From Chloroflexota bacterium (lineage in GTDB: Bacteria; Chloroflexota; Anaerolineae; Anaerolineales; Villigracilaceae), in assembly GCA_016213105.1 (NCBI GenBank), contig JACRBN010000019.1, forward strand, positions 248,001-312,000: DNA of 64,000 bases, in the 5' to 3' direction. Shown piece by piece: positions 6,960-39,182 of this stretch. A program made the position numbers and the translations under genes. The notes beneath the pieces were generated by a model. The model saw only the letters and a list, made by a program, of their open reading frames with translations. It was not told the DNA's origin and did not search any database. Position 1 is the first letter of the stretch, and each line of letters begins with the position of its first letter.

Positions 6960-7636
6960 GCGATTTCTTCAGCTTTTTCCTGCGCTTCCTGCCCGACCTG
7001 ATGCGCGGCGCGGGCATGACCGTCCTGCTGACCATCGAAGGCTTGTCGGCGGGCTTCGTGCTCGGCCTGCTGGCCGCGCTGGCGCGCACCTACGGCGGCA
7101 AGTTCTGGCGCGGATTGGCGGTGGGCTACATCGAACTCTTCCGCGGCACGCCGCTGCTGGTGCAGTTGTTCCTCATTTATTATGGCCTGCCTGGGCTGGG
7201 CATCACGCTCTCGCGCGAACTCTCGGCCTTCCTGGCGCTGGGACTGAACAGCGGCGCCTACCAGGCCGAGTACCTGCGTGGCTCCCTGCTGGCCATCGGC
7301 GAAGGCCAGATGATGGCGGGACGCGCCATCGGCCTCTCGCGCTGGAAGACCATCTGGCACGTCATCCTGCCGCAGGCGCTGCGGCTGGCGATCCCCGCCT
7401 GGTCGAACGAACCCGTCTCGCTGCTCAAATCCACGGCGGTGGTCTTCCTCATCGCGGTGCCCGAGTTGATGGCCAAGGCCAAGGCGATTGCGGCCAAGAC
7501 CTACGACCCGATTGCATCCTATCTGGCGGTGGCGATTGTCTACCTGGCGATGGTGTATCTGCTCGACCTGGTGCTGCGCTGGATGGAGAGCAGCACACGC
7601 ATCCCAGGCTTCGAGATGGAAGGGAAGAAAGCCTGA
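6956..7636 (+). CDS. Amino-acid ABC transporter permease 2
   Basis: 226 aa. The start ATG overlaps the ATPase stop as ATGA, so translation is probably coupled. The sequence [40 protein letters not shown] and [20 protein letters not shown] are classical HisQ/GlnP features, the last being the EAA loop. It is a paralogue of permease 1 and is last in the operon, ending just before a perfect terminator hairpin. Confidence 0.92.
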
Positions 7637-7644
7637 ACGAACGC

Positions 7645-7672
7645 AAAAGTCGGAGCGAATGCTCCGACTTTT
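7645..7672 (+). terminator. Rho-independent terminator of the amino-acid importer operon
   Basis: A perfect 12-bp stem (AAAAGTCGGAGC / GCTCCGACTTTT) with a GAAT loop ends in TTTTTTA. It begins 8 bp after the last permease gene. The A/T tails on both sides allow it to act for the convergent HEAT-repeat gene too. Confidence 0.88.
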
Positions 7673-7699
7673 TTATGCTGCTCAAATTGAAAATTTGAG

Positions 7700-8842
7700 C
7701 TACGATTTTTTATCCAGCGCTTCCCGGGCCAGCGCGGAGAACTCACGGTCGGCGCGGTTGTTGACGATGTCCCTCAGCGCAGCTGCGGCGCGCGGATCGC
7801 GCAGTCCCGCCAGGGAGAGGATGGCCTGCCTTTGCACGATGCGCTCGGGGTCTTGCAGCATCCCGACCAACAGCGGGGAGACGCGCGGATCCTGGATCAT
7901 GCCCAGGCCCAGGATGGCGTGTTCGCGCACGTCCACTTCGGGATGGCGCAGCCCCTCGGCCAGGAAATCGACGGCGGGGGCGCCCATTTTTCCCAGGGCC
8001 AGGGCGGCCACACGGCTGACCTCATGGTGCAGGTCGTACAGGGCCATACCCAATTCCTCGACCGCGCGCAGATCCTTGAGTTCGCCCAGCACGATGGCCG
8101 CGAATTTGCGCACCGTGCCCTCACGGTCGGCCAGGGCCTCGATCAACGGCTCGACGGCCGACGCGCCCATCTTCTCGATGGCTTCCAACAGGTCGCTGGC
8201 GGCCTGTTCGCGCCCGTACCACCAGAACGAATCGCGCAGGGCTTCCATCAGGTAGGGCAGCGCCGCGGTGTGATGCGTTTCGCCCAGGGAGCGCGCGGCG
8301 GCCTGGCGCACCTCGATCTCCTGATCGTCGAGCAGCAGGCCCGCGATATCATCGAACGTGGATGGGTCGCGGAATTTCCCGAGCGCCAGCGCGGCCCAGG
8401 TGCGCACCTCAGGCTCGGGATCCTTCAGCGCCCTGAGCAGGTGCGGGATGACCTGTGGGTCGCCGATCAGGCCCAGCGCGGCGGCGGCGCGGGCGCGGAC
8501 GGTATAAAACTCGCCCTGCAGCGCGTCCAATAAGGGAGGCACGACGGAGCGGTCCTTGATCTGCGCCATGACGTCCGCCACCTGAACGCGCATGAGCGGA
8601 TGTGCGTTTTGCAGGCTGTGAACCAGGGCGGGGATGGCGGCAGGTCCGATGCGGGCGAGGAGACGCCCGACAATCGGAGGCAGGTTCGGGTCGCGACTCT
8701 GCAGCGCTTCGACCAGGGCGGGTGCGGCGTCCCCCCCAAGGCGGAGCAACTCCTGGGCTGCCCGCTCCCGTTTGGTTGGGTCGGTCAACTGCCCGATCCA
8801 CTTCTTTGCTTCGGTATGAGGTCCACCTGTGAGCCAATTCAT
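7700..8842 (-). CDS. HEAT-repeat protein (PBS-lyase type repeats)
   Basis: 380 aa composed almost wholly of about ten tandem repeats of roughly 31-35 residues. Each has the pattern of two helices around VxPLLxALxD and VRxxAAxALGxIGD; for example VVPPLLDALQGEFYTVRAR and RVSPLLVGMLQDPERIVQR. No signal peptide or catalytic motif is seen, so it is probably a cytoplasmic scaffold. Repeats of this kind also occur in phycobilin lyase-related proteins, but nothing here suggests photosynthesis. It is divergent from the pyruvate dehydrogenase operon. Confidence 0.82.
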   Translation of the reverse strand: MNWLTGGPHTEAKKWIGQLTDPTKRERAAQELLRLGGDAAPALVEALQSRDPNLPPIVGRLLARIGPAAIPALVHSLQNAHPLMRVQVADVMAQIKDRSVVPPLLDALQGEFYTVRARAAAALGLIGDPQVIPHLLRALKDPEPEVRTWAALALGKFRDPSTFDDIAGLLLDDQEIEVRQAAARSLGETHHTAALPYLMEALRDSFWWYGREQAASDLLEAIEKMGASAVEPLIEALADREGTVRKFAAIVLGELKDLRAVEELGMALYDLHHEVSRVAALALGKMGAPAVDFLAEGLRHPEVDVREHAILGLGMIQDPRVSPLLVGMLQDPERIVQRQAILSLAGLRDPRAAAALRDIVNNRADREFSALAREALDKKS

Positions 8843-8903
8843 ATCTCTATTTTACACCCTTGGAACCCGATAGAAATTGATTGAAAATTGGACTATGATT
8901 ATC

Positions 8904-8912
8904 TGATATAAT
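8904..8912 (+). promoter_or_regulatory. Extended -10 promoter upstream of pdhA
   Basis: TGATATAAT is a perfect extended -10 (TGnTATAAT), 76 bp before the E1 alpha start. No well-placed -35 is present (TTGAAA at 8881-8886 is 20 bp away), which fits extended -10 promoters that need little -35 contact. Confidence 0.5.
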
Positions 8913-8988
8913 GCCGCGTTTGATAATTTATGGGACACCGTCAGCAGCGTCTGACGTTGTTTATTGCGCCAGCTCAGCGGAGAAAATA

Positions 8989-9945
8989 ATGAAGAAGGAA
9001 CAATTGCTCGATTTGTATCACCAAATGGTTTTGATCCGCCGCGTGGAGGAACGCGGCGCCGAGTTGTATCAGGCCGGCAAGATTGGCGGCTTCATGCACC
9101 TTTATATCGGACAGGAAGCGGTTTCGACGGGGTTGATCGCGGCGCGCGAGACGCGTGACCGCGTCATTACGGCCTATCGCGACCACGGCGTGGCGTTGAA
9201 CTGCGGCATTTCCGCCAACGAAGTGATGGCGGAACTGCTCGGCAAGGCGACGGGCATGTCGAAGGGCAAGGGCGGGTCGATGCACATGGCGGACACCTCG
9301 AAAAACATGTGGGGCGGGCATGCCATCGTGGGCGGGCACCTGCCGATCGCCTCGGGCTTTGCGCTGGGCGACCAGTATGCGGGCAACGACAACGTCACGA
9401 TCTGCATGTTCGGCGACGGCGCGACCAATATCGGTTATTTCCATGAGGCGTTGAATCTCGCCAAAACCTGGGGCCTGCGTGTGCTGTGGGTGTGCGAGAA
9501 CAATCAGTATGGCATGGGCACGGCGGTTGAACGCGCCTCGGCTGTGACCGAGATCCGCCAGAAGGCCGAAGGTTATGGCATGAAGAATGGCCAGGCCAAC
9601 GGCATGGATGTGATGCAGGTCTACGAGGCTTCGAAGGCCGCCATCGACTATGTCCGCACGGAGGGCCAGCCGTACCTGCTCGAGATCGACACCTACCGTT
9701 TCCGTGGCCACTCGATGGGCGACCCCGAGCGCTACCGCAAGGCCGAGGAAGTCAAGCAGTGGCAGGAGAACGATCCCATCGGCATCTTCAACAAGTATTT
9801 GTTGGAGAAGAAGGTTGCTACCCGTAAGGTGCTGGATGAGATCGAAGTACGCGTGGAAGAGGAAGTGGCCAAGGCCATCGAGTTTGCCGAAGCCAGCCCC
9901 GAGCCGGCCTTGGAAGATTTGTTTACGGATATTTACGCGGATTAA
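8989..9945 (+). CDS. pdhA: Pyruvate dehydrogenase E1 component, alpha subunit
   Basis: 318 aa. The start at 8989 (MKKEQLLDLYHQMVLIRRVEE) is preceded by GGAG and matches the family N-terminus; the upstream extension is not conserved-looking. The thiamine diphosphate site is visible as GDGATNIGYFHEALN followed by ENNQYGMGT, and the regulatory loop as YRFRGHSMGDPERYR. It decarboxylates pyruvate with E1 beta and transfers the acetyl group to the E2 lipoyl arm. An acetoin or branched-chain substrate remains possible. It is first of three genes; no E3 gene is in this window. Confidence 0.88.
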   Translation: MKKEQLLDLYHQMVLIRRVEERGAELYQAGKIGGFMHLYIGQEAVSTGLIAARETRDRVITAYRDHGVALNCGISANEVMAELLGKATGMSKGKGGSMHMADTSKNMWGGHAIVGGHLPIASGFALGDQYAGNDNVTICMFGDGATNIGYFHEALNLAKTWGLRVLWVCENNQYGMGTAVERASAVTEIRQKAEGYGMKNGQANGMDVMQVYEASKAAIDYVRTEGQPYLLEIDTYRFRGHSMGDPERYRKAEEVKQWQENDPIGIFNKYLLEKKVATRKVLDEIEVRVEEEVAKAIEFAEASPEPALEDLFTDIYAD

Positions 9946-12293: not shown

Positions 12294-12299
12294 AAAACA

Positions 12300-12330
12300 A
12301 ACTTCCGAAGTCGCACAGACTTCGGAAGTT
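12300..12330. terminator. Terminator hairpin after the pyruvate dehydrogenase operon
   Basis: A perfect 13-bp stem (AACTTCCGAAGTC / GACTTCGGAAGTT) with a GCACA loop is followed by TTCTTTT. It separates convergent genes. The same core palindrome recurs at 38898-38928, where it interrupts a reverse-transcriptase gene, so it behaves as a repeat as well. Confidence 0.8.
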
Positions 12331-12364
12331 TTCTTTTGTAAGCACTTGCAAGCGATAGGGGAAG

Positions 12365-32812: not shown

Positions 32813-33967
<1,155 letters not shown>

Positions 33968-33969
33968 CC

Positions 33970-34009
33970 GTCATTGCGAGGAGGAGCGGAGCGACGACGA
34001 AGCAATCTC
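33970..34009. repeat. Half copy of the CATTGCGAG palindromic repeat
   Basis: GTCATTGCGAGGAGGAGCGG continues to GAAGCAATCTC. This matches the left arm of the elements at 9952 and 62861; the complementary right arm is absent. It begins 2 bp after the E1-rhodanese stop codon. Confidence 0.75.
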
Positions 34010-34082
34010 ATGTTCGTGGAAAGCGGAAAGAGGAAAGAGTTTCGCCCTTGTCTTGAGCTTGTGAACGCTGAACGGAGGCAAC

Positions 34083-35384
34083 ATGACATCCAGGTCGATC
34101 TTTTCAGGTTTTCTCACGGGGCTGTTGACTTGCCTGCCCCTGTGGTTGATCATGCACGACGGCTGGTCCGAACGGCTGGAGCGCGGGGCGCTGACCTCGT
34201 CGGCGCTGGAGATCGTGGCCTGGCTGTCGATTCTGTTCTTCATCCCGCTGGGCGGATTCCTCTCCGCCAAATGGAATTGGGCGGGGACGCGCGCCCAGTC
34301 TGCGCGTACCGGAGCCGTGGCGGGACTGGTGACAGGCATGCTGGCCTACGTGCTGGTCGGCGCGGCGGGCATGGGCGTAATGGGCAACCTCGACATGCTG
34401 AACTTACCCGAAAATTACGTGGCTTCGCAACAGACGGGGGCGAATCATGTCTACCAGGCGCTCATCTCCACGGCTTATTGGGTCTATCTGGGCTTTTGGG
34501 GCTTCCTGCTGGCGGGATCCGCCCTGGGCGCGGCGGGCGGATGGATGGCGGGCGCGGGCCAGGGCTGGGGCAAAGCGCCCGTTCCCAAAGAGGAATGGCT
34601 GCTGCGTCTGCCCTTTTATTTGCTGCTCTTTTCAGGCTGTTTCCATTACGCGCTGACGGCGGCTTTTTTTGGCGCCTTCTCCGAGTCGCTTTACAACTCA
34701 AATGCCCTCACCTTTCTGCCGGCCGACCTGCTGACGAGCGCAGGGGATATTCTTTTCCTGAGCCTGACCACGTCCCTGTTGACCCTGCTGCTGCCCCAGG
34801 CGGCCTGCCTGGGCTGGATGCTGGCCGCCTGGAAATACAGGCGCTTCCGCGGGTATTATCTTTTTGGACTGCTGGCGGCGGTGATCAGCCTGGCGGTCAC
34901 CCTCCGCTCGATTGACTTCGACCTGGGCAGGTATTTCGTCGGGGCGCTGGGATTTTGCCTGCTGACCGCCTTCACCTGGGGAGTGGCGCGGGAGACGGAA
35001 CGCCCCTCCGAGCCTGCCCGCCATTCCTTCGGCGATTGGATCGTCTTCCTGCTCTGGCAGGGCTTGCTCTCGGGCGCGCAGGCCTTTGTCGGGCTGATTC
35101 CTTTCGCGCTGTCAGCCTCCCTGTTGACGGTCGGAAACATGTCCACCCTGCTGGACCAGGGCGGGGTGGTGGACAGCATTCCGACCCAGCTCAACAATGT
35201 CTTCTCGATCCTGTTGAGTGCGGGCCTGATCCTGATGACCCTGGGCGGCCTGGGCGGATTGTTCACCGCCTGGATCGTCGCCTTCGTGCGCAAGTTTTTC
35301 TTCTACCCCGAGTTCTTCAACCGCGCTGGCCTGGACACGGAATGGAATCATCCGTCCCGCGAGATCAGCGAACAGGTCCCGTGA
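34083..35384 (+). CDS. Polytopic membrane protein of unknown function
   Basis: 433 aa, about ten hydrophobic helices, with Gly-rich packing segments (GAVAGLVTGMLAYVLVGAAG, LILMTLGGLGGLFTAWIVAF). Small soluble loops only; no transporter or enzyme motif is recognised. The start ATG is preceded by CGGAGGCAAC, a good ribosome site. A terminator follows about 80 bp after the stop. It appears monocistronic. Similar large hypothetical membrane proteins with YrzE-like halves are frequent in Chloroflexota (family knowledge, uncertain). Confidence 0.65.
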   Translation: MTSRSIFSGFLTGLLTCLPLWLIMHDGWSERLERGALTSSALEIVAWLSILFFIPLGGFLSAKWNWAGTRAQSARTGAVAGLVTGMLAYVLVGAAGMGVMGNLDMLNLPENYVASQQTGANHVYQALISTAYWVYLGFWGFLLAGSALGAAGGWMAGAGQGWGKAPVPKEEWLLRLPFYLLLFSGCFHYALTAAFFGAFSESLYNSNALTFLPADLLTSAGDILFLSLTTSLLTLLLPQAACLGWMLAAWKYRRFRGYYLFGLLAAVISLAVTLRSIDFDLGRYFVGALGFCLLTAFTWGVARETERPSEPARHSFGDWIVFLLWQGLLSGAQAFVGLIPFALSASLLTVGNMSTLLDQGGVVDSIPTQLNNVFSILLSAGLILMTLGGLGGLFTAWIVAFVRKFFFYPEFFNRAGLDTEWNHPSREISEQVP

Positions 35385-35464
35385 GACTGAAACCCTACGT
35401 CCTGAGCGGAGCGCAGCGCAGTCGAAGGACAAGGGAATGAAAGATGAAAGAGGAAAGAGGAAAG

Positions 35465-35492
35465 AATCTCCCGTCAGCCGTGATGGGAGATT
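35465..35492 (+). terminator. Terminator after the polytopic membrane protein
   Basis: AATCTCCC and GGGAGATT form an 8-bp stem with a 12-nt loop, followed by TTGTTATAA. Its 3' edge runs directly into the TATAAT of the next promoter. Confidence 0.65.
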
Positions 35493-35496
35493 TTGT

Positions 35497-35502
35497 TATA
35501 AT
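35497..35502 (+). promoter_or_regulatory. Candidate -10 box of the first TIR-FGE gene
   Basis: TATAAT, 33 bp before the ATG. A matching -35 is not clear. The second TIR-FGE gene has TATAAT in the same position relative to its ATG (36855-36860), so the two leaders are alike. Confidence 0.5.
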
Positions 35503-35534
35503 CTCCTCATCACATTACCCCGTGGGACAATTTC

Positions 35535-36827
35535 ATGAGCCGAAAATTACGTGTCTTCCTTTGCCATGCCACCGAAGATCGCCCCGCCGCAAGCGAGTTG
35601 TACCAGAAACTCGCCGCCGAGCCGTGGATCCAACCGTGGATGGACACGGAAGACCTGCTGCCTGGACAGGATTTCGACTTGGAAATATACAAGGCCCTGC
35701 GCGATTCGGATGCCATCCTGATTTGCATGTCGCAGACCTCGGTGAGCAAGTCGGGTTATCTTAACAAGGAAATCCGCCGCACGTTGGATATTGCCGATGA
35801 AAAGCCCGAAGGCTCGATTTACATCATTCCCGTCAAGTTCGATGATTGTATTCCCTCGTTTGAGCGCCTGAAGAAATATCAATGGCTCGAGTACTTTGCG
35901 CCCAACGCACATGAAAAACTGCTCAAGTCCCTGCGCCTGCGCGCGGAGGTATTGAAGATCGAAACCGCTGTGAAGCAAACGCCTGCCCCAACTCCCAAGA
36001 CTGTCATAGATGATGGACTTGACCTCTATCGCTTCATCGAAATCCCGCCGCAGCCGAACTCGAAGGTGGATTATCCGTTTTGGATTGGAAAATATCCTGT
36101 TACCAACGCGCAATACGAGCGGTTTTTGAACGCGCCCGATTATGCCAACCCTGTCTATTGGCTGGAATTTCCGAAATTCGATGAGAAATGTCAGCCGATG
36201 GGAGATTGGGGTAAAGCAGGCGTGGATTGGCTGCGCGAAGAATTGAAGAAGGCAAACTCTAAAGTATTATTGCCGCGTTATTGGGATGATAAGAATGTAG
36301 GAAAATCCAATCCCAATAACCCAGTTGTAGGAGTCTCATGGTATGAAGCCTGTGCGTATGCAGAATGGTTGTGTCAGAATTGGGAGAGACAGCCAGAGGC
36401 CAGAGCTAATCCAACTTTGAAACCACGATCTATCCGCATGCCATTAGAGAGTGAATGGATCCTAGCGGCGGGTGGAGATGTACCCGAAGACCGCTATCCG
36501 TGGGATGAGCTTGGCCAGGTGACGACCTCTTTGAAGGAAGTCTTAAGGCGGGCTAACGTCCGTGAAGGTGAGATCGGGCATACCACGTCCGTAGATGCGT
36601 ACCCGCTCGGAAGAAGTTCCTTTGGGGTGATGGATATGGTGGGCAATGTATGGGAGTGGCAGGTAAATTGCCAAGATAGGAAGACAGGCTGGGTGCGTCT
36701 GCGAGGTGGCTCGTGGAGTGACCGGGAAGGTGAAGTCTGCGTTTCGATCTGCGACACTATCCACCCACTTAACAGAAGTTTCGGTCTCGGGTTTCGAGTA
36801 TTGGCCCTACAAGGTGAAATTTCGTAA
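35535..36827 (+). CDS. TIR-domain protein fused to an FGE-sulfatase-fold domain (soluble)
   Basis: 430 aa. The TIR domain (about 1-140) begins RKLRVFLCHATEDRPAAS, includes the BB-loop-like MDTEDLLPGQDF and has the candidate catalytic Glu79 in LNKEIRRTLD. The FGE-sulfatase fold (about 165-430) is marked by YPVTNAQYERFL, VVGVSWYEACAYAEWL, RMPLESEWILAAGG, GNVWEWQV and RLRGGSW. The two Cys of a working formylglycine oxidase are absent. No membrane segment. TIR domains of bacteria often cleave NAD+ in immunity; the FGE domain may be the sensor. Its C-terminus is not repeat-like or Asn-rich. Confidence 0.82.
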   Translation: MSRKLRVFLCHATEDRPAASELYQKLAAEPWIQPWMDTEDLLPGQDFDLEIYKALRDSDAILICMSQTSVSKSGYLNKEIRRTLDIADEKPEGSIYIIPVKFDDCIPSFERLKKYQWLEYFAPNAHEKLLKSLRLRAEVLKIETAVKQTPAPTPKTVIDDGLDLYRFIEIPPQPNSKVDYPFWIGKYPVTNAQYERFLNAPDYANPVYWLEFPKFDEKCQPMGDWGKAGVDWLREELKKANSKVLLPRYWDDKNVGKSNPNNPVVGVSWYEACAYAEWLCQNWERQPEARANPTLKPRSIRMPLESEWILAAGGDVPEDRYPWDELGQVTTSLKEVLRRANVREGEIGHTTSVDAYPLGRSSFGVMDMVGNVWEWQVNCQDRKTGWVRLRGGSWSDREGEVCVSICDTIHPLNRSFGLGFRVLALQGEIS

Positions 36828-36854
36828 AGGTGTTTTAGAATATCTGAAGTCTTG

Positions 36855-36860
36855 TATAAT
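36855..36860 (+). promoter_or_regulatory. Candidate -10 box of the second TIR-FGE gene
   Basis: TATAAT in CTTGTATAATATCTTC, 33 bp before the ATG, the same distance as in the first TIR-FGE gene. The -35 region is weak. It indicates separate transcription of the second gene despite the 65-bp gap. Confidence 0.5.
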
Positions 36861-36892
36861 ATCTTCATTCCATCTTTGTGCGGGACACCTAC

Positions 36893-38575
36893 ATGAGCCG
36901 ACCGTTGCGCGTTTTTCTCTGCCATGCGTCACAAGACAAGCCAGCCGTCTGGAGGCTGCACCGTTACCTGAAACAGCACGGCGTCCAACCGTGGCTGGAC
37001 CAGGTGGATTTGCTGCCAGGCCAAAACTGGGAAGTGGAAATCCCGAACGCGTTGGCTGCCTCGGATGTGATTCTCGTTTGCCTCTCGAAAAATTCCGTGG
37101 ATAAGGAAGGCTACGTTCAAAAGGAAATTTCTTTCGCTTTGGACAAGGCCCTGGAGAAACCCGAAGGCACGATCTTTGTCATCCCCGTAAAACTGGAAGA
37201 GTGCGACATCCCCAAGCGCCTGAGCCGCTATCAGTGGGTGGACTTGTCCCGCGCGGATGGCCGCAAGCGCCTGCTGATGGGTTTGAACAAAAGAGCCTCC
37301 GACCTGGGCGCGGAGGTCTCGCCTGTAGTGCTGGAAGATGTGCGCCAGAGGAAGACGGCTCCCAGACCTGCTGCATCGGATATTGCTGAAAGTGAAAAAG
37401 CAGAACAGGAAGCTAAAGAAACCGCAGAGCGCGAAGCCACAGAGAAAGCCGCGCGCGAAAATGCTGAGCGGGAAGAGAAAGAAAAGGCAGAACGCGAAGC
37501 TGCTGAGAAAGCTGCTCTCGAAAAAGCCGAGCGGGAAGAGAAAGAAAGGACAGTCCGCGAAACCGCCGAGAAAATCTTGCGTGAGAAAAACGCACGGGAA
37601 GCGGCGGAAAAGATAAAACGGGAGCAGGCTGTACAATCCATACCGCTCGGAGAGAAACCTTCGGGAAAGTCTGCCCCTGCCCAAATTTCGAATAGGAAAC
37701 CAACAAAGCCAAAAATCCCCGTGTGGGTGATGGGCCTGCTGGCGCTGGGATTAGTTTCCTTGTCTGTGTGGGGCATGTCTCGATTCATTACGCCATTTGG
37801 AATCGGCTCTACCATGATTGGCGAAGACGGCATGACATTGATGTATGTGCCAGCGGGTGATTTCCTCATGGGCTCCACCGACGCAGCTTCTTGGGCTTCC
37901 AGTGATGAAAAGCCCCAACATACTGTGACCCTGGATGCCTTCTGGATCGACCAAACCGAAGTAACCAATAAAATGTATTCCTTGTGTGTAAGTGCAGGCG
38001 TATGTAACGAGCCTTCCAACAACAGTTCTTCCACTCGTTCCAGCTATTACGGTAATTCCGAGTTTGATGATTATCCTGTTCTATACGTGGACTGGAACAT
38101 GGCCAGGACCTATTGCCAATGGGCGGGACGCGACCTGCCCACCGAAGCGCAATGGGAAAAGGCCGCGCGCGGCACGGACGGGCGTATCTATCCCTGGGGC
38201 AATGACTTTGACTGTCACAAGGGAAATTTCGATGACGAGACCCAAATCGACAGTTATGTTGTGCCTGGGGGAGAAAATTGCGATGGCTTCCCAGAGACGG
38301 CCCCCGTTGGGAGTTTCACGAGCGGACAAAGTCCTTATGGCGCGTATGACATGGCAGGCAATGTTTGGGAATGGGTACGGGATTGGTATGATGAAACCTA
38401 TTATCAAAATTCACCCTTGGCGAACCCGTTTGGGCCTGACTCGGGCCAATACCGAGTGCTGCGGGGCGGCTCGTGGAACAGCATCAATAGCAACACGCGC
38501 TCTGCCTACCGCTACAGGGCCGGCCCAGCGAATTCGTACAGCAACCTCGGTTTTCGTTGCTCCCGCTCACCCTAG
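36893..38575 (+). CDS. TIR / coiled-coil / transmembrane / FGE-sulfatase protein with a DGR-like variable C-terminus
   Basis: 560 aa. ATG 36893 (MSRPLRVFLCHASQDKPAVW) matches the paralogue's start. TIR 1-140 with candidate catalytic Glu78 (VQKEISFALD); Ala/Glu/Lys/Arg coiled coil 166-248; transmembrane helix 276-298; FGE-sulfatase fold 310-560 with VDWNMARTYCQWAGRDLPTE, EAQWEKAARGTDG and YDMAGNVWEWVRDW. The end, RGGSWNSINSNTRSAYRYRA then GFRCSRSP, is the position of variable regions in diversity-generating retroelement targets. The topology puts the FGE domain outside and TIR inside, suggesting a surface sensor coupled to an NADase. Ligand and activity are unproven. Confidence 0.82.
   Translation: MSRPLRVFLCHASQDKPAVWRLHRYLKQHGVQPWLDQVDLLPGQNWEVEIPNALAASDVILVCLSKNSVDKEGYVQKEISFALDKALEKPEGTIFVIPVKLEECDIPKRLSRYQWVDLSRADGRKRLLMGLNKRASDLGAEVSPVVLEDVRQRKTAPRPAASDIAESEKAEQEAKETAEREATEKAARENAEREEKEKAEREAAEKAALEKAEREEKERTVRETAEKILREKNAREAAEKIKREQAVQSIPLGEKPSGKSAPAQISNRKPTKPKIPVWVMGLLALGLVSLSVWGMSRFITPFGIGSTMIGEDGMTLMYVPAGDFLMGSTDAASWASSDEKPQHTVTLDAFWIDQTEVTNKMYSLCVSAGVCNEPSNNSSSTRSSYYGNSEFDDYPVLYVDWNMARTYCQWAGRDLPTEAQWEKAARGTDGRIYPWGNDFDCHKGNFDDETQIDSYVVPGGENCDGFPETAPVGSFTSGQSPYGAYDMAGNVWEWVRDWYDETYYQNSPLANPFGPDSGQYRVLRGGSWNSINSNTRSAYRYRAGPANSYSNLGFRCSRSP
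38461..38572 (+). other. Candidate DGR variable region (VR) at the 3' end of the TIR-FGE gene
   Basis: Within RGGSW...GFRCSRSP at least eight codons (AGC, ATC, AAT, AGC, TAC, TAC, TAC, AGC) are each explained by adenine-only change from an AAC codon, and intact AAC codons lie between them. This is the mark of adenine-directed mutagenesis from a template repeat. No template repeat was found in the window, so direct proof is missing. FGE folds naturally carry RGGSW...RSAYR...GFR, so part of the pattern is family conservation. Confidence 0.6.
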
Positions 38576-38621
38576 TCCTGAAATGCTGGTTTCTGGAATT
38601 CTGAAAAACTGAAGCGGGGGT

Positions 38622-38642
38622 CTGGGGGGCTTTGCCCCCCAG
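38622..38642 (+). other. GC-rich hairpin downstream of the candidate variable region
   Basis: CTGGGGGGC and GCCCCCCAG form a perfect 9-bp stem with a TTT loop, 47 bp after the TIR-FGE stop. DGRs carry such a stem-loop just beyond the variable region that is needed for retrohoming. The same GGGTCTGGGGGGC sequence type also occurs as a generic repeat, so the assignment is tentative. A second inverted repeat (GTTAAAAAT / ATTTTTAAC, 38645-38669) overlaps the reverse-transcriptase start codon. Confidence 0.5.
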
Positions 38643-38651
38643 CGGTTAAAA

Positions 38652-38915
38652 ATGGGCAAAATTTTTAACTACCTCTACGACAAGATCTGCAGCCCCCTGA
38701 ATATTTGGTGGGCCTATAAAGACGCGGCGCGCGGCAAGCGCTATACGCCCCCAGTGGCTTCCTTCGAGTACGATCTCGAAAAAAATCTGGTCGAGATCGG
38801 GCAGGAATTGAAAGAGGAAACGTATCAGGTGGGAGGGTATCACAGTTTTCTGATCGCCAAGCCCAAAAGAAGGCTGGTGAATGCCCCGTTAAACCCAGAC
38901 TTCGGAAGTCTCTGA
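38652..38915 (+). pseudogene. Truncated reverse-transcriptase gene (DGR/retron-type N-terminus)
   Basis: 87 codons. The start MGKIFNYLYDKICSPLNIWW, then AYKDAARGKRYTPPV, FEYDLEKNLVEIGQELKEET and YHSFLIAKPKRRLVNAP follow the N-terminal pattern of DGR and related reverse transcriptases (AYRKA.RGKR, L..EL....Y..GPY..F.I..PK.RLI.A). A normal protein would continue for about 300 residues with the YxDD active site. Here the frame ends eight residues later in a terminator-like repeat (38898-38928). It starts 76 bp after the TIR-FGE stop, the usual DGR order. It is non-functional. Confidence 0.78.
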
Positions 38916-38928
38916 GACTTCCGAAGTC
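38898..38928 (+). terminator. Terminator-like palindrome that truncates the reverse-transcriptase gene
   Basis: GACTTCGGAAGTC and GACTTCCGAAGTC form a 13-bp stem around TCTGA, followed by TTTTCC. Its core is the same palindrome as the pyruvate dehydrogenase terminator (12300-12330), implying that this cassette is spread as a repeat. Confidence 0.7.
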
Positions 38929-38936
38929 TTTTCCAC

Positions 38937-39052
38937 GGTACATCGTGGAAATAGGACGCAGATTAACGCGGATGGACGCCGATTTTATTGAATCTTTCCG
39001 CGTGCATCCGCGCTCGTCCGCGTCCCATGCAGGTTTTGTACGGTACAGAAGC
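38937..39052. mobile_element. MITE-like element with CGCAGATTAACGCGG arms
   Basis: Long imperfect inverted arms, GGACGCAGATTAACGCGGAT to the left and ATCCGCGCTCGTCCGCGTCC to the right, with ends near CACGGTACAT and TTTGTACGGTACAG. The right end shares TTTGTACGGTA with the 109-bp element in the amylase remnant. No transposase is encoded. It lies just beyond the break in the reverse-transcriptase gene. Confidence 0.65.
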
Positions 39053-39182
39053 GAAGTCTTTTGATTGCCTTTTTCGTGTGCCTTCGTGTTCTTCGTGGAA
39101 AAAATGTTGCTTCCATTCTTCACAAGGTTTTCTGATCGCAGTGGGAAATTGAGATTACAATCAAATCGAAACTTGGAGGCTC

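Follow-up and report, generated by a model that had tools for sequence, protein, structure and literature searches.

The stretch of DNA analysed here comprises 64,000 nucleotides of a Chloroflexota bacterium of the Villigracilaceae (contig JACRBN010000019.1, positions 248,001 to 312,000; G000:C17:248001-312000 in our numbering of genomes, contigs and loci as G, C and L). It is referred to as the window, at its full length, and belongs to a genome of 5.39 Mb that is 97.55% complete. On the forward strand, a gene combining a TIR domain with a formylglycine-generating enzyme (FGE) domain is followed by an array of CTG units, a GC hairpin and the first part of a reverse transcriptase (RT), and these features are considered here as parts of a diversity-generating retroelement (DGR). 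The DGR order of FGE-type target, hairpin and RT N-terminus had been proposed in an initial annotation of the sequence, and all three parts were confirmed (TIR_2/FGE-sulfatase, a 9-bp stem and PHROG 1423, respectively).

The target gene (36893..38575, + strand) runs from an ATG at 36893 to a stop codon at 38573-38575 and encodes 560 aa, with TIR_2 at the N-terminus (Pfam, 7.2e-28) and FGE-sulfatase at the C-terminus (4.6e-57). Among solved structures, formylglycine-generating enzymes were the best matches (2.6e-40) and the variable protein TvpA (2y3c) scored lower (4.4e-15), so that the FGE domain fits the C-type-lectin/FGE-like C-terminus of DGR targets. The TIR domain gave a weak match (0.00076) to the TIR protein 3h16, with Q-K-E aligned, and we take this Glu to be catalytic. 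For this receptor a role as NADase, in signalling or in phage defence is putative. In a shallow AlphaFold2 model of the full target (mean pLDDT 67.9, pTM 0.42), a long helix at residues 161-247 was well predicted. Residues 278-296 formed a low-confidence helix that is hydrophobic as judged by eye, and for these reasons they are considered a possible membrane anchor; the receptor is probably membrane-anchored. The variable repeat (VR) was weakly modelled, with pLDDT <50 for residues 515-550.

The VR, which is probably frozen, occupies 38454..38567 (+) and was delimited by a gap-free alignment to the template repeats (TRs) of four relatives, L038-L041, whose RT N-termini are 65-74% identical to that of the window over 78 codons. 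It had been anticipated that relatives would hold TRs from which the window departs at adenines; TRs do exist there, and the departure is mainly at adenines. Considering the columns that are invariant among the four TRs, the window VR was changed in 12/29 of those with A and in 3/57 of those without (Fisher one-sided p = 7.5e-5), the 28 columns that vary among the TRs standing outside both classes. The 12 ordered TR-TR comparisons made as controls were all negative (p 0.81-1). In the VR/TR pairs of L038-L041 themselves, mismatches at A and at other bases per aligned segment were 12/0, 12/1, 11/0 plus 13/0 (two segments) and 20/0. Seven codons of the window (AGC, ATC and TAC) fit adenine changes of AAC, as had been claimed. 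The AAT codon listed with them does not belong there, as it is no adenine change and stands already in TR L038 and TR L040. Four further codons (GCC, GGC, TCG and CGC) differ where all four TRs have A. It was also possible to see that the VRs of L038 and L040 hold three bases more than their own TRs in the alignment, which suggests that VR length can drift from the template.

The GC hairpin, CTGGGGGGC-TTT-GCCCCCCAG, is located at 38622..38642 (+), with a stem of 9 bp and a loop of 3 nt. The stem is the one described in the initial annotation; its distance from the target stop was measured as 46 nt and not 47. Counted from the aligned end of the VR, the hairpin begins 54 nt downstream (38567 -> 38622). 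A hairpin after the VR, as in other DGRs, is thus found at 38622-38642, though with a TTT loop in place of the published GRNA and at more than the published distance of 4-34 bp. A strict scan for perfect stems detected a GC-rich hairpin at the corresponding place in 13/21 loci, the window included.

Downstream of the hairpin, the RT remnant (38652..38885, +) covers codons 1-78 of ~358, as delimited by homology to intact relatives, and its ORF (38652-38915) continues in unrelated sequence; the cut had been placed at residue ~80. The remnant matched the reverse transcriptase family PHROG 1423 (E 7.8e-20) and was 74-81% identical over 78 codons to L036, L037, L038 and L039, among which the RT of L039 is intact and that of L038 has one stop codon. 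In L038-L041 the DGR order is target, hairpin, RT, Avd and TR, with an Avd-like gene in each locus. Compared with genome contigs, the 78-codon fragment matched 3 loci, of Anaerolineae isolate fen_1038, Anaerolineaceae isolate Bin_61_36 and Anaerolineales isolate Zod_Metabat.883, all members of the family. Its relatives occur in 46/152 family genomes, the own genome included, and a five-sequence RT profile (A1) had matches in at least 81/152, some of which resemble other RT types.

It could be argued that the fragment comes from a retron, a group II intron or another RT, and that the A-rich C-terminus of the target reflects ordinary divergence. Such an origin would agree with the ORF alone having no Pfam or NCBIfam match and only weak RT matches in PADLOC (0.00014, and RT_UG19 0.011). 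However, full-length relatives of the fragment sit in loci with TR, VR and Avd, and the adenine bias is significant and absent from the controls, so we regard this explanation as extremely unlikely. A retron or group II origin of the RT fragment was rejected: besides the PHROG 1423 match, the intact RT of L039 had as its best solved structure 8ub7 (4.6e-46), which we take to be the RT of the BPP-1 DGR, well ahead of group II intron entries (5.6e-23) and retron-type entries (5e-22). The clustering with retrons or group II introns that could have spoken against the initial annotation was not seen, and the fragment groups with RTs that have Avd and TR alongside. What is left is not a full enzyme of the DGR clade (78 of ~358 codons), and the remaining part is DGR-type. 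Over codons 1-78, dN was 0.09-0.24 with dS saturated or 1.66 in comparison with six relatives, which is like intact copies among themselves. Because of these values the remnant appears to be without relaxed selection, and the break looks recent.

At 38897..38929, 11 nt past the last homologous RT codon, there is a perfect 15-bp palindrome with a 3-nt spacer, built on GACTTCGGAAGT. A dispersed repeat starts at this palindrome (38897) and ends at ~39051, and 38895-39180, used as a query, matched the own genome at 24 places, its own position among them. A second palindrome built on the same sequence was noted in the window at 12299-12331. Since the break adjoins a repeat that recurs elsewhere in the genome, the truncation might be an assembly misjoin, with an intact DGR on the real chromosome. 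We consider this very unlikely, taking into account that the contig extends 48 kb past the break and is collinear from 39149 with G001 (the genome compared below), that no contig with the missing 3' part of the RT was found at E 0.001 among the matches listed, and that the own genome holds a second remnant.

Searches of the own genome gave no match to PF00078 (RVT_1) at E 0.001, and with the A1 profile at the same threshold only two RT fragments (codons 1-78 and 1-50) were present among the matches listed. No TR was found there with the DNA query 38400-38660, which matched only itself and 40 nt at the start of the VR of the second locus, L005; for Avd there was no tblastn match in the 64-kb window, the search covering the window and the fetched loci only. 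The proposed absence of a TR and of an accessory gene therefore held within these searches. Likewise, the description of the ligand site as frozen is supported, as the searches of the own genome brought up no intact DGR RT. For the same reason the receptor would keep one fixed specificity, its VR being probably fixed now.

In the second decayed DGR, L005 (L005:5122-7178, G000:C16), a TIR-FGE gene precedes a CTG array, which is followed by a hairpin of 6 bp and by codons 1-50 of an RT. Against the TRs of L042 and L043, its VR was changed in 16/30 shared A columns and in 5/78 others (p = 2.6e-7). The gene order is that of the intact DGR L043, with DNA matches on both flanks: an ORF read as a PIN-type toxin, the target, the RT and a gene read as glyQS, both names being our presumption. 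Past its last codon, the RT fragment gives way to a duplicate of the start of the glyQS-like gene (L005:7090-7172 vs L043:10210-10289), 75.6% identical to the start of the gene in L005 itself, and one extra gene (7294-9213) lies ahead of the latter. This arrangement is good evidence that L005 decayed in place.

Only one other genome of the genus, G001 (locus L089), was compared with the window. Collinearity breaks off after 33966 and is restored at 39149. Between these points the window has a block (33967..39148) made up of a membrane-protein-like ORF, two genes of TIR-FGE type and the RT remnant. G001 lacks this block and has other genes at the syntenic position, with a match to 35411-35497 only. 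G001 gave no match to the RT fragment and one distant RT match among the matches listed, as well as 18 places resembling TIR or FGE parts. Thus one lineage acquired the block, or the other lost it. The initial annotation had proposed to look for an intact DGR RT at this locus in related strains, and none was encountered in the genomes compared. Within the block, the gene upstream of the target is a tandem TIR-FGE paralogue (35535..36827, +; Pfam TIR_2 4e-23, FGE-sulfatase 1.1e-33). It has no CTG array in the window-wide chain scan and no DGR-type VR at its 3' end as judged by eye, and it could be a target that was frozen earlier or simply a paralogue.

Truncations of this type recur in the family. 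From the matches listed we selected by hand 16 RT fragments with a start at codon 1-14 and an early end; the set leaves aside longer contig-edge fragments (e.g. G055:C14 and G045:C335), RTs resumed in another segment and other RT types. Of these 16, 13 (in 12 genomes) have 500 bp or more of contig past the break. In 12 of these 13 interior cases the fragment ends by codon 106 of 358 (binomial p = 4.3e-6 vs uniform breaks, for a hand-picked set). Read plainly, such early breaks would mean that deletions occurred repeatedly and left the 3' end of the target untouched. Fragments that lack the RT start also occur (L104, L106 and L107). In L052:1-570, the RT start (28 codons) is joined to the interior of the next FGE gene through a short GC-rich stretch common to both, which suggests that targets were duplicated in tandem.

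Some of these observations bear on another explanation, in which the target, the hairpin and the RT start were copied together from elsewhere, a complete DGR never existed at this place and the VR was, or still is, diversified in trans by a DGR at a different site. Trans targets do exist in the family: L181 (G073), on another contig than TR L040, carries an array and shows 12 mismatches at A and 0 at other bases over 69 bp of that TR. The RT start inside the following FGE gene in L052 points to duplication, and G001 is without the block. Nevertheless, neither an RT nor a TR that could act in trans was found in the own genome, and the surroundings of L005 are those of the intact DGR L043, so that decay in place is favoured for this second remnant. 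We judge the copied-cassette explanation unlikely.

Taken as a whole, the locus is very probably the remnant of a chromosomal DGR whose target was the TIR receptor. Several points weigh against this conclusion. The frozen state is deduced from absence in one draft genome, whose completeness of 97.55% leaves a missing part where a trans-acting RT could sit, and the search for Avd was confined to the window and the fetched loci. The own genome yielded no TR, so that the VR was compared only with those of relatives, and 3/57 of its non-A columns were also changed. In addition, no relative was found with a full DGR at the locus of the window, G001 lacking the block. In the complete DGR, as its relatives suggest, a complex of RT and Avd would have copied an RNA of the TR, located downstream of avd, and made errors at adenines. 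The resulting cDNA would have taken the place of the VR where the FGE domain has its 3' end, at a target marked by the hairpin together with the 3' end of the VR. The variable tip of the FGE domain would lie outside the cell and the TIR domain inside, and ligand binding could trigger TIR signalling; the topology, the sensing of a ligand and the TIR output are all putative. Everything from RT codon 79 to the TR, avd included, would have been lost later, in one or several steps, with the break beside the dispersed palindromic repeat.

A further aspect of the locus is the array located between the stop codon of the target and the hairpin. It consists of five CTG units at spacings of 8-7-8-8 nt (38578..38611, +) and is the sole chain of at least four CTG at 7-8 nt on either strand of the window. 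The spacing mixes 7 and 8 nt, and a search with a fixed 8-nt period misses such arrays. In 71 oriented loci (499 kb) there were 56 chains of at least four CTG on the RT strand and 1 on the other, the average in mononucleotide shuffles being 0.6. Of the chains on the RT strand, 37 lay within 350 bp upstream of the RT, and the rest further upstream or, partly as another repeat, downstream. A different repeat of period 7 (ACTGATC-like) was observed after or downstream of the RT in L124, L138, L134, L099 and L055.

VR/TR pairs could be found in 41/71 loci, and CTG chains followed 30/45 VR ends vs 0/44 TR ends, or 28/41 vs 0/41 per locus; VRs split by an indel count as two ends except in the per-locus figures. 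When any 3-mer was admitted as the unit (at least four units), chains were present in 32/42 VR tails, where split VRs are likewise counted twice, in 1/42 TR tails and in 1.1% of dinucleotide-shuffled VR tails. All these tail counts omit one low-complexity pair of L152, and the any-3-mer analysis also L210 and tails <80 nt. When degenerate units were counted in 55 tails of VRs and of remnants, again without that pair of L152, five was the commonest number (22/55), numbers above five being partly blurred where the scan enters the hairpin. Among 30 array loci, 24 were examined; L166, L168, L171, L172 and L174 (simple repeats) and L169 (unlike the array) were set aside by eye. The end of an FGE gene stands directly before the array in 22/24.

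Outside the family the pattern was weaker or different. In other families of the phylum, 9/25 VR tails vs 2/24 TR tails had arrays, several with CTT-type units as seen by eye, and CTT/CCCTTT-like units were seen, also by eye, in other lineages. A set of 21 phage and plasmid loci, 20 of which gave 27 VR/TR pairs (one of them, in ANMV-1, doubtful), showed YTG chains of at least four units after 6/27 VRs and 0/27 TRs, with 0.1% in shuffles. The six cases are all phages, some of them close kin, and hence do not represent six independent cases. No plasmid locus reached four YTG units, and a BPP-1-like phage had two.

A search for the array pattern gave matches in 36/152 family genomes. With the reversed pattern as a control, many more matches than with the pattern itself were obtained in some genomes, such as G030 (41 and 115 vs 1 and 3) and G025 (44 and 79 vs 0 and 7), an excess that we think comes largely from simple repeats; in the own genome the pattern gave 1 match and the control 0. 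The pattern alone is non-specific in repeat-rich genomes, and for this reason the case for the array rests on the comparison of VRs with TRs.

No description of the array came up in our searches of open-licence PMC papers or in the available text of PMC3240598 and PMC4891356. In our opinion there is about an even chance that DGR targets bear a cis-element between the VR and the hairpin, in the form of a pyrimidine-rich array of 7-8 nt units, and that it is perhaps an extended directionality element of the initiation of mutagenic homing (IMH) type. The array is a candidate for this role because it is situated just after the VR, follows VRs and hardly ever TRs, and is present after one trans target (L181). 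The Avd of BPP-1 is a pentamer. As a bold mechanism, one array unit might be engaged by each protomer of a ring-shaped Avd oligomer, which would license the VR, and not the TR, as the homing site. Remnants that keep the array, such as that of the window, could become landing sites again if a DGR arrived.

With respect to its meaning, the locus holds an immune-type receptor, probably hypervariable once, that seems to have been frozen by the loss of its mutator. As RT 5' remnants recur in the family, it can be asked at what point a lineage gives up diversifying a sensor and settles on a single version of it. The array may serve in target recognition, as its position and the statistics suggest. 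If functional, it would be a sequence tag for DGR targets, including orphan and trans ones, and a new handle on the discrimination between VR and TR, which is relevant to DGRs as tools for protein evolution.

The nearest published case is that of Thiohalocapsa PB-PSB1 (PNAS 2024, PMC10907252), for which the available text describes degenerate DGR loci along with targets of CLec/FGE type, a TIR or transmembrane domain being present in some of them. Degenerate loci and DGR targets that bear a TIR domain are therefore already published there, and the connection between DGRs and TIR proteins put forward in the initial annotation is in print, with a smaller novelty than had been hoped for. With the terms used, the accessible parts of PMC8867640 and PMC8144416 yielded no passage on DGRs that are degenerate or bear a TIR domain. 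The locus in the window fits the sense of a degenerate DGR locus given in PMC10907252, that is, a DGR target with key machinery missing. The two systems are alike in their missing or pseudogenized machinery and their CLec/FGE targets. According to the same text, one complete locus is kept per class in Thiohalocapsa, whereas no intact DGR RT was found in the genome of the window, which differs as well in being of the Anaerolineae (Chloroflexota) and in its TIR-helix-FGE layout.

The DGR of BPP-1 shares with the locus in the window a target whose 3' end holds the VR, the GC hairpin and the RT, and with the relatives of this locus also Avd and TR. As given in the available text of PMC3240598, the IMH of BPP-1 comprises a GC stretch together with a part of 21 bp that is mismatched to the TR at 5 positions and sets the direction of transfer, and phage DGR hairpins have stems of 7-10 bp with a 4-nt GRNA loop, 4-34 bp after the VR. 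The hairpin of the window, in contrast, lies at 54 nt with a TTT loop and the CTG array in the gap. A swapped 4-bp spacer stayed active in BPP-1 and longer spacers gradually reduced activity (PMC3240598, same portion), so that a long spacer with a needed sequence, as proposed for the array, would differ from BPP-1.

TvpA (Treponema denticola variable protein 1) is a DGR variable protein according to the text available of PMC7159879, and its structure (PDB 2y3c), which is FGE-like, matched the FGE domain of the target only. In the FGS/FGE-DGR conflict systems, as presented in that text, DGR-diversified FGE domains belong to NTPase-centred ternary systems and vWA is fused to FGS. As at the locus in the window, a diversified FGE domain is tied to proteins of conflict systems; the FGS/FGE-DGR systems are centred on an NTPase, whereas in the window the TIR domain is located within the FGE protein itself.

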